Assembly (NCBI GenBank): GCA_003242955.1
Contig: QJPH01000269.1
Span: 1-40,403 of the forward strand
Source of the DNA: Candidatus Methylumidiphilus alinenensis
Lineage (GTDB): Bacteria; Pseudomonadota; Gammaproteobacteria; Methylococcales; Methylococcaceae
Direction of reading: 5' to 3'
DNA: 40,403 nucleotides
Every line of letters starts with the position of its first letter. Within the stretch, counting starts at the first letter, position 1. A model generated the notes under the pieces. The model was not told the DNA's origin. It searched no databases and saw nothing but the letters and a program-made list of their open reading frames with translations. The translations under genes were made by a program, and so were the position numbers. This document shows, in pieces, positions 11,852 through 34,471 of this stretch.

Positions 11852-12057
11852 GGGCCTTGGTCATCGTTCAGCCCACCAAGCAGGAGTGCGGCGACTCGTC
11901 CACCTTCCGAACCCAGCGGCGACGAGTGTTGTAGCCCGGATGGAGCCGCTTGCGGCGCAATCCGGGAGGTTGCCGACCACAAAACCCGGATTACGCCGCA
12001 AGCGGCTCCATCCGGGCTACGGAGTCACCCAATCGGGCTGAACGATGACCAAGGCCC
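11852..12057. repeat. 206-bp nested inverted-repeat element
   Basis: The outer arms are perfect 23-nt inverted repeats (11852-11874 and 12035-12057, core CCTTGGTCATCGTTCAG). Inside is a second, perfect 27-nt pair (11931-11957 and 11994-12020, core CGGATGGAGCCGCTTGCGG) of the common GTAGCCCGGATG REP family. The outer arms are also flanked by ACAAAACG on both sides in direct orientation. The whole looks like a REP pair embedded in a larger palindromic element. It contains no transposase. Confidence 0.75.
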
Positions 12058-24011: not shown

Positions 24012-24136
24012 GCTTTTATCCTAGCGTTGCGCCGTTGCGTGAGTAAAAAATCCTTGCCCAAAGTATAGCTAAGCAATCATGGCGAGGAAGAAGAAAGAAA
24101 GTCTCACGCAACGGCGCAACGACGCAACGTAAAAGC
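24012..24136. repeat. Inverted-repeat element, family B, copy 1
   Basis: Perfect 19-nt arms CGTTGCGCCGTTGCGTGAG (24025-24043) and the complement (24103-24121) enclose a core of 59 nt. Outside, GCTTTTA- and TAAAAGC-type ends extend the similarity. A second copy is at 34354-34471. The core of copy 2 is in the opposite orientation while the right outer end is the same. It contains no gene. Confidence 0.75.
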
Positions 24137-26742: not shown

Positions 26743-26800
26743 GTAGGGGCGAATTCATTCGCCTATAATACATCAACTTGCCGAATGAATTCGCCCCTAC
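26743..26800. repeat. 58-bp palindrome directly before thyA
   Basis: GTAGGGGCGAATTCATTCG and CGAATGAATTCGCCCCTAC are perfect 19-nt arms around a 20-nt loop. This GTAGGGGCGAATTCATTCG word is known to me as a dispersed repeat in several bacterial groups. It lies between lgt and thyA, ending 13 nt before the thyA ATG, so the hairpin covers the normal ribosome binding zone. Confidence 0.75.
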
Positions 26801-33162: not shown

Positions 33163-33530
33163 TCGTGTTCGTTCCCACGCTCGCCGTTAAACAAAAGTTC
33201 CGTCGAGCTAAAATGCCGTCATTCCAGCAGGGATGCAGGAATCCAGTGCCATGGATGGTAACTTGTAAGTTGCGCAAGTGCTTGATTAAGTGAATGTACC
33301 AACCCGCAGATTTACATCCCTGTAATCTGGATTCCGGCAATCCCTGCCGGAATGACGGGTTTTCAGCACTTGTGTTGGTTGGTTCCCAAGCTCCGGTTTG
33401 GAAAGCCTTATCTTGCAAGCTCCTGCTTGGCAGTTCTTCGGGAAGTTGGAGCTTAAAAACCCCCATTCCCAAGCGGAAGCTTGGGAACAAGAACCAACTA
33501 GAAATCAGTGAAAAATGACGGAGTGTTTAC
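33163..33530. other. Repeat-filled gap without a gene
   Basis: The stretch carries copy 2 of family A (33216-33358). After it come scattered CCCAAGCTCCGG and GCTTGGGAAC words (33383-33490) of the same kind as the palindrome at 25773. I see no coding sequence until the GGAG-preceded ATG at 33531. Confidence 0.6.
33216..33358. repeat. Dispersed inverted-repeat element, family A, copy 2
   Basis: This 143-bp copy begins CCGTCATTCCAGCAGGGATG and ends CAATCCCTGCCGGAATGACGG, so its ends are inverted copies. The interior matches copy 1 at 23770 in order and spacing, but lacks the extra segment of that copy. It lies between the TPR gene and the broken DUF4160 gene. Confidence 0.75.
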
Positions 33531-33863
33531 ATGCCCACCATCAGTATTAGACTTTATCGGAAACCTAGTTAGTAGTCCCGCCGTTACTGTGTTAGTTGAT
33601 GGTTTCCGATAAAGTCTATTTTCTATGGCATCGTCATTCAAATGTTTTGGAACGAACACGCGCCCCCGCATTTTCATGCGCTGTATGGCGAACATGAAGC
33701 ACTTATAGACATCAAAAAACTGGAAGTATTGCGTGGCAGTTTGCCGCGCCGTGCGCTCAATCTGGCATTGGATTGGGCGGAACTGCATCAACAGGCATTA
33801 TTGGAGGACTGGGCATTATGCGAACAGCTACAACAACCGAAACCCATCAAGCCCTTGGCATAA
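33531..33863 (+). pseudogene. DUF4160 gene interrupted by a 69-bp element
   Basis: DUF4160 proteins begin MPTIS..FYGI and carry a PPHFHA motif. Here ATG CCC ACC ATC AGT ATT at 33531 (GGAG 7 nt upstream) gives MPTISI, then the 69-bp element is inserted, and at 33621 the sequence resumes with FYGIVIQMFWNEHAPPHFHA and runs to the stop at 33863. Insert plus duplicated ATT is 72 nt, so the frame is kept, but TAG in the element stops translation after 13 residues. Without the insert the product would be 86 residues. A shorter protein from the internal ATG at 33642 is conceivable. The DUF2442 gene, a common partner, overlaps its end. Confidence 0.82.
33549..33617. mobile_element. 69-bp inverted-repeat insertion with ATT target duplication
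   Basis: Perfect 17-nt ends AGACTTTATCGGAAACC and GGTTTCCGATAAAGTCT enclose 35 bp. The flanks are ATT at 33546-33548 and ATT at 33618-33620. Deleting the element and one ATT restores the conserved MPTISIFYGI start of the DUF4160 gene exactly. It is therefore a very small non-autonomous element mobilised by an unknown transposase. No such transposase is in the window. Confidence 0.8.
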
Positions 33864-34141
33864 TACCTTCCGCACCTTGGCGGGTATTGAATATCAAAAT
33901 AGAACCCTGTCATCGGCTACAGGTGACTTTTATGGATGGTTCAACGGGCTGGGTGGACTTGAGCCAGTGGCTTCGTTCCGGGCGCATTGACGGATCGATT
34001 TTCGAGGCATTGCGCGAAGAGGATTTTTTTAGGCTTGCCGCTGTTGAATTAGGTGTCATCACATGGCCCAACGGGGCGGACCTGTCGCCTGATGCCATGT
34101 ATGATGCACTCCAACAGAGCGCGGAGTGGAAACCTAGCTGA
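33818..34141 (+). CDS. DUF2442 domain protein
   Basis: The 107-residue protein carries a DUF2442 domain (RLQVTFMDGSTGWVDLSQWL, then FEALREEDFFRLAAVELGVI and WPNGADLSPDAMYDAL). The family commonly sits beside DUF4160, and the pair is suspected to be a toxin-antitoxin-like module; function is unproven. The ATG at 33818 lies inside the 3' end of the DUF4160 gene (46-nt overlap). As the partner is broken by an insertion, the DUF2442 protein may be an orphan or poorly translated. Confidence 0.85.
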   Translation: MRTATTTETHQALGIIPSAPWRVLNIKIEPCHRLQVTFMDGSTGWVDLSQWLRSGRIDGSIFEALREEDFFRLAAVELGVITWPNGADLSPDAMYDALQQSAEWKPS

Positions 34142-34353: not shown

Positions 34354-34471
34354 GTTTTGCTCTTAACGTTGCGCCGTTGCGTGAGACCTTCTTTTTGCTT
34401 CCTCGCCGTACCGCTGTGGAGTCTGGCAAAGATTTTTTTCACGCAACGGCGCAACGACGCAACGTAAAAGC
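34354..34471. repeat. Inverted-repeat element, family B, copy 2
   Basis: Arms CGTTGCGCCGTTGCGTGAG (34367-34385) and TCACGCAACGGCGCAACG (34439-34456) match those of copy 1 at 24012, and both copies end ACGCAACGTAAAAGCGGTAGT. The core, however, matches copy 1 only when read in the opposite direction (for example GGCGAGGAAG and TTGCC words). Recombination between the arms would explain the flip. Confidence 0.75.

Follow-up and report, generated by a model that had tools for sequence, protein, structure and literature searches.

Interrupted DUF4160 gene and the inserted segment

The window, the whole stretch of DNA analysed in this study, is 40,403 nucleotides long and contains a pair of overlapping genes on the plus strand. 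The first is a DUF4160 gene (PF13711; dhiT-like; 33531..33863), and the second is a DUF2442 gene (PF10387; dhiA-like; 33818..34141), which overlaps the end of the DUF4160 gene. The DUF2442 gene is open, and its start codon (ATG at 33818) was deduced from the open frame 33773-34141. In the dhiTA system, reported to be functional in Dickeya and E. coli (PMC8198452), DUF4160 is the toxin and DUF2442 the antitoxin. The gene order in the window is that of dhiTA, with the toxin first and the antitoxin overlapping. In Thermus plasmids, the corresponding pair was treated as a hypothesised toxin-antitoxin system, and single deletions did not affect plasmid maintenance in E. coli, as far as the accessible part of that report goes (PMC12724237). 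Judging from its family, the DUF4160 protein would be a toxin in this organism. Two imperfect inverted repeats (28 nt, 86%; 23 nt, 83%) lie directly upstream of the DUF4160 gene at 33207-33488.

The DUF4160 gene is interrupted after codon 6 by a non-coding segment of 69 bp (33549..33617, no strand assigned). Its first 17 nt (33549..33565, plus strand) read AGACTTTATCGGAAACC and its last 17 nt (33601..33617, minus strand) are the exact reverse complement of AGACTTTATCGGAAACC, leaving a middle of 35 bp. The segment is flanked on both sides by ATT (33546..33548 and 33618..33620, both plus strand), and the inverted repeat extends to 18/18 if the adjoining T and A of the two ATT copies are included. 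Inspection of the nucleotides thus confirmed the perfect ends, the middle and the flanking ATT described in a previous sequence-only reading. The same reading had regarded the segment as one of the smallest elements of its kind. This was not supported, because bacterial miniature inverted-repeat transposable elements (MITEs) are described as spanning approximately 50 to 600 bp in the consulted portion of PMC6382973, a range that includes 69 bp.

The insert of 72 nt (69 + 3) preserves the phase of the DUF4160 frame, as had been claimed. The frame from 33531 meets TAG, TAG and TGA inside the element; three in-frame stops, rather than a single TAG as first reported, disrupt it. The element has room for at most 23 codons. 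Downstream of it, the remainder of the gene is one open frame to 33863, in which the sole ATG is located at 33642, and the part from this codon matches PF13711 (6.7e-20). With the element in place, the frame of the dhiT-like gene is cut off after codon 6, and that of the dhiA-like gene is open. The locus is a clean case of a dhiTA-type pair with an interrupted putative toxin gene and a still open antitoxin gene.

A chance origin of the inverted repeat was rejected, as perfect 17-mer inverted pairs at a spacing of 0-100 did not occur in any of 50 Markov-1 simulated windows. The real window has five places with such pairs, the other four being other palindromic repeats. A sigma-70-like match (33526-33553, 9/12) overlaps the left end of the element, and this region contains two such matches versus a mean of 0.7 in shuffles.

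Several other palindromic repeats were observed in the window. A 90-bp repeat of the GTAGCCCGGATG type (11931-12020) appears REPIN-like by eye, and this type is present at dozens of places in the source genome (80 matches counted strand-wise). Two copies of another repeat (24025-24121 and 34367-34456) have long perfect inverted ends, CGTTGCGCCGTTGCGTGAG, and a common right flank, acgcaacgtaaa. A 58-bp repeat (26743-26800) has perfect 19-nt inverted ends, GTAGGGGCGAATTCATTCG. This repeat survey scored 40 of 145 first-look candidates.

Empty orthologous site and dispersed copies

We compared the locus with those of other genomes of the genus. On contig C325 of a sister genome (G004), an orthologous stretch crosses the insertion point with a single ATT and lacks the element. 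In the 36 bases immediately to the right of the element, this stretch is 97% identical to the window; identity is 90% over 33779-34141 and 72% over 174 columns of the upstream flank. According to the alignment coordinates, the dhiT-like gene of G004 (L115/L121) carries a 130-bp deletion, which is not a multiple of three, and its dhiA-like DUF2442 frame is also broken; both defects are independent of the MITE. Thus, the same putative toxin gene is broken differently in the sister genome, and the antitoxin frame is broken as well. G001 contains an uninterrupted DUF4160 and DUF2442 pair with a start of the same kind, and two pieces from G003 run across the site and lack the element, though their frames have other irregularities. 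The right-hand part of the locus has some match in six of the seven genus genomes.

The insertion of the element into a DUF4160 gene with a 3-bp ATT duplication is upheld by the empty orthologous site, the uninterrupted homologues and the other copies described below. The absence of any other copy and uninterrupted homologues lacking the MPTISIFYGI junction had been named beforehand as refuting results, and neither was seen. The locus had also been described as an element caught in the act. The insertion is probably recent, since the ends, the duplication and the remainder of the gene are intact; the movement itself was not observed.

A search for other copies with 3-bp duplications had been suggested, and it detected them. 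In the source genome (G000; 6.57 Mb, 597 contigs), 24 places have full-length copies of 68-72 bp, and exact 3-bp duplications are present at 12 of them. Two pairs of contigs (C320/C85 and C296/C378) share flanks, giving 22 distinct sites. The exact 17-nt end was present in 7 of the 311 genomes of the order, namely all seven examined genomes of this genus. When the genomes of named species were scanned for both exact ends, 23 stretches were obtained, all in uncultured Methylococcaceae MAGs. No match to the element was detected among plasmids and phages by blastn (E up to 0.01), nor to the exact two-ended pattern in viral contigs.

We then collected sites from loci of the seven genus genomes, allowing up to 4 mismatches per end, a length of 60-80 bp and 15 bases of flank. 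Entries whose flanks were identical were first combined into one, and 2 of the remaining 61 were dropped because their flanks marked them as near-duplicates. The resulting 59 distinct sites, which are those in the loci examined rather than every site of the seven genomes, range from 66 to 72 bp, and 42 of them are 69 bp long. Exact 3-bp duplications were found at 28 of the 59 (AAT at 14, ATT at 12, AGT and AAA at one each), so that 27 of 28 follow the pattern A-N-T. In 2000 shuffles of the right flanks, exact duplications averaged 12.7 and never exceeded 21, and comparisons shifted by offsets of 1 to 11 gave 0 to 4 equal 3-mers. The other 31 sites differ at one base (18) or at two or more (13). 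Among the 23 loci that the scan for both exact ends returned, 6 have exact duplications, a smaller share than among all 59.

L103 and L107 are copies from one MAG with unrelated flanks and a single difference in 69 positions, a sign of fairly recent movement. A MITE was also observed near the start of a gene that appears ParM/StbA-like by eye, at C296:1075 and C378:1535 of G000 and at L102:844, in the same position each time; these copies have perfect ends, and their middles differ between genomes. At C394:385 of G000, this position has one MITE end only.

Over the 59 sites, the majority base had a mean frequency of 0.97 in one end, 0.98 in the other and 0.67 in the middle. Such a difference might arise if the element were domesticated, that is, kept as a functional hairpin or binding site. 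The values for the ends are inflated because the sites were picked by their ends, with up to 4 mismatches in each, and spread by a transposase keeps ends too. Furthermore, the element here interrupts a gene, and the window has no Rfam match at the gathering score. We therefore consider domestication very unlikely.

The elements constitute a new family of a well-known kind, the MITEs, found solely in a single genus of uncultured methanotrophs from lakes (7 of the 311 genomes of the order). Among the article titles returned by a literature search on MITEs in methanotrophs and Methylococcaceae, none concerns this family. Such elements are easily missed and are able to split small genes. The exact ends, the target rule and the probable transposase type of the family are now given.

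Transposases with related ends

The ends were searched for in 61 genomes with at most 1 mismatch, and matches were obtained in nine: the seven of the genus, G043 and G030. G043 has a single end. G030, which consists of one contig and belongs to another genus of the family, contains 27 ends reading AGACATTATCGGAAACC, which are off at 1 of 17 positions; a reversed control pattern gave 1 match in this genome. The ends of the source genome and those of G030 differ at position 5. In G030, they bound an insertion sequence (IS) with an inverted right end; copies in which both ends are present measure 1005-1015 bp. Exact 3-bp duplications flank 13 of the 15 distinct copies with both ends and flanks that were counted from the 27 ends (AAT at 6, ATT at 5, ACT and AGT at one each), all of the form A-N-T. 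In this count, L141 has the same right flank as L132.

The IS of G030 has two frames, which overlap at a T run (read as A on the coding strand). Its transposase contains the domains HTH_Tnp_4 (PF13613; 4.9e-11) and DDE_Tnp_4 (PF13359; 6.6e-11). The NCBI model transpos_IS5_4 matched the second frame alone at 4.6e-10 with 39.3 bits, below its cut-off of 140, and the first frame alone gave no match to the NCBI IS5 transposase model. Domains, frames and duplications suggest that the mover of the MITEs belongs to the IS5 family, in an ISL2-like group; 3-bp duplications of the form A-N-T are typical of ISL2.

The MITE ends are identical to the ends of the G030 IS at 16/17 positions, and at 17/17 at one end of three copies. 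Four of the 59 MITE sites (L156, L172, L174 and L179) have the ATAATGTCT-type right end of this IS, and in L172, L174 and L179 the last 17 bases are the IS right end (17/17). Identity of this degree, and the existence of MITEs with the IS-type right end, would be expected if the MITE were an internal-deletion derivative (type I MITE) of an ISL2-like IS. To distinguish this from a MITE sharing only its ends with the IS (type II), the middles of five MITE copies were compared with two IS sequences, the G030 IS and a remnant in G001 described below. Similarity did not exceed chance in 9 of the 10 comparisons, and the best one (window versus G001 remnant) was equalled by 8 of 200 shuffles, a figure uncorrected for the number of comparisons. 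As the middle is unlike the IS, the relation runs through the ends, and an origin by internal deletion is unlikely.

It is also necessary to consider REPINs, which, like REP sequences in general, are short palindromic dispersed repeats. A REPIN is an inverted pair of REP sequences spread by a RAYT (Y1 HUH) transposase and is not known to make target duplications. The element resembles REPINs in its size of approximately 70 bp, its palindromic ends and its strong RNA hairpin (z of -5.6 to -8.7 for four folded strands, namely both strands of the window copy and one each of two other copies), and the source genome is rich in another repeat that appears REPIN-like by eye. This explanation is nevertheless highly improbable: 3-bp duplications, nearly all A-N-T, occur at 28 of 59 sites against the shuffle mean given above, the ends are common to a DDE-type IS making the same duplications, and the orthologous site has a single ATT.

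Thus, the 69-bp segment is very probably a MITE that shares only its ends with an ISL2-like IS5 element and would be moved in trans by the transposase of such an element. As a non-autonomous DNA transposon, it comprises a pair of 17-bp ends with a short filler between them. A DDE transposase of the ISL2-like IS5 group (HTH_Tnp_4 and DDE_Tnp_4, in two overlapping frames) would bind the ends in trans and either excise the MITE or copy it. The MITE would then be joined to a staggered A-N-T target, and repair would produce the direct repeats. In the window, the element landed after codon 6 of the dhiT-like toxin gene; it stops this frame, and the dhiA-like gene is open.

The first frame of the G030 transposase was found (E <= 1e-15) in four of 38 genomes of the family: G030, G001, G013 and G022. 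The matches in G013 and G022, which are the examined genomes of genus g8, are 57-58% and 38% identical to it, respectively. The G013 match has the same coordinates as a plasmid match in Methylomagnum ishizawai. The IS ends in G013 (Methylomagnum) read AGACATTATTAAAAACC, and equal 3-bp flanks were seen in one of the six copies read by eye. The six copies (L124, L127, L130, L133, L136 and L139) are nearly identical, and each has an A after its right end.

Within the genus itself, the close relative of the G030 transposase that was found is decayed. It is located on contig C117 of G001, is 71 and 81% identical in amino acids over two pieces, one of which has a stop, and is accompanied by a related right end with 3 mismatches. 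We found no intact transposase with such ends in the genus. A search for a transposase with the same ends had been suggested; it yielded one with matching ends (16/17) in another genus (G030) and, in the genus of the MITE, this decayed relative. Transposases at 36-39% identity are present in G000 (C166), G005 and G004, and no such ends within 4 mismatches were detected beside them in the stretches examined; the G004 transposase runs to the contig end, so the absence of ends there is no proof. The C166 transposase of the source genome (38%) was considered as the mover and rejected, as no matching ends were present in 2505 bases with up to 5 mismatches allowed. Around it, the inverted repeats gave no clear pair of element ends. 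Transposase relics beside copies and solo ends were searched for by tblastn (E up to 1), and none were detected in 100 genus loci and the window, a set without the five loci retrieved by the transposase search. The source transposase of the genus has presumably decayed or been lost, or it is absent from the assemblies or from the genomes sampled.

Larger units and comparison with known systems

Two larger stretches of the source genome are bounded by a MITE and an inverted end. The first, C1:31501-32327 (L038 2502-3328), is 827 bp long, with a MITE on one side, a perfect inverted end on the other and ATT outside both. A complete yefM-yoeB toxin-antitoxin pair lies between the MITE and the inverted end, and the unit has no transposase. 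Homologous yefM-yoeB pairs in G006 and G001 lack the ends. Because the MITE of this unit is itself flanked by ATT/ATT, and only AAT is a commoner duplication, the unit may be two separate insertions. The second, C141:5729-5968 (L063), is 240 bp long and consists of a MITE and a further 171 bases that terminate in an inverted end (3 mismatches in 17), with AAT outside both. By eye, the added stretch contains a long imperfect palindrome. It is possible, though on the doubtful side, that the same ends also bound larger transposase-free cassettes and that the family thereby moves host genes; the 827-bp unit is the best candidate for such a cassette and the 240-bp unit the second. If this were true, one transposon family would both disrupt a toxin-antitoxin pair (the dhiTA-like one of the window) and transport another (yefM-yoeB).

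The proposed mover can be compared with ISCaa2, ISCaa3 and ISCaa6 of Amoebophilus (IS5 family, ISL2 group), which are 914-991 bp long and have imperfect ends of 15/19 to 22/23 in the consulted part of PMC3196728. ISCaa2 and ISCaa3 have two frames with a predicted -1 frameshift, and the G030 IS also has two frames. A single ORF is typical of the ISL2 group according to the same portion of that paper, and ISCaa6 has one, unlike the G030 IS. In the entries seen there, the three elements are listed without direct repeats, which also distinguishes them from the G030 IS (PMC3196728). Unlike these elements, the MITE itself has no transposase.

Among MITEs, we compared the family with MITEAba12 of Acinetobacter, as described in the accessible text of PMC6382973. 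One difference is that the movement of MITEAba12 was seen in the laboratory. ISAba12, the proposed parent of MITEAba12, is present in the same genome (PMC6382973), and no intact parent was found in the present genus. MITEAba12 is larger, at 111-114 bp versus 66-72 bp, and target duplications are reported there for 40% of its 90 copies, compared with 28 of 59 sites here (PMC6382973). It is likewise small, non-coding and conserved mainly in its ends, and, in the same part of that report, its likeness to its IS is confined to the terminal inverted repeats, as in the present family (PMC6382973).
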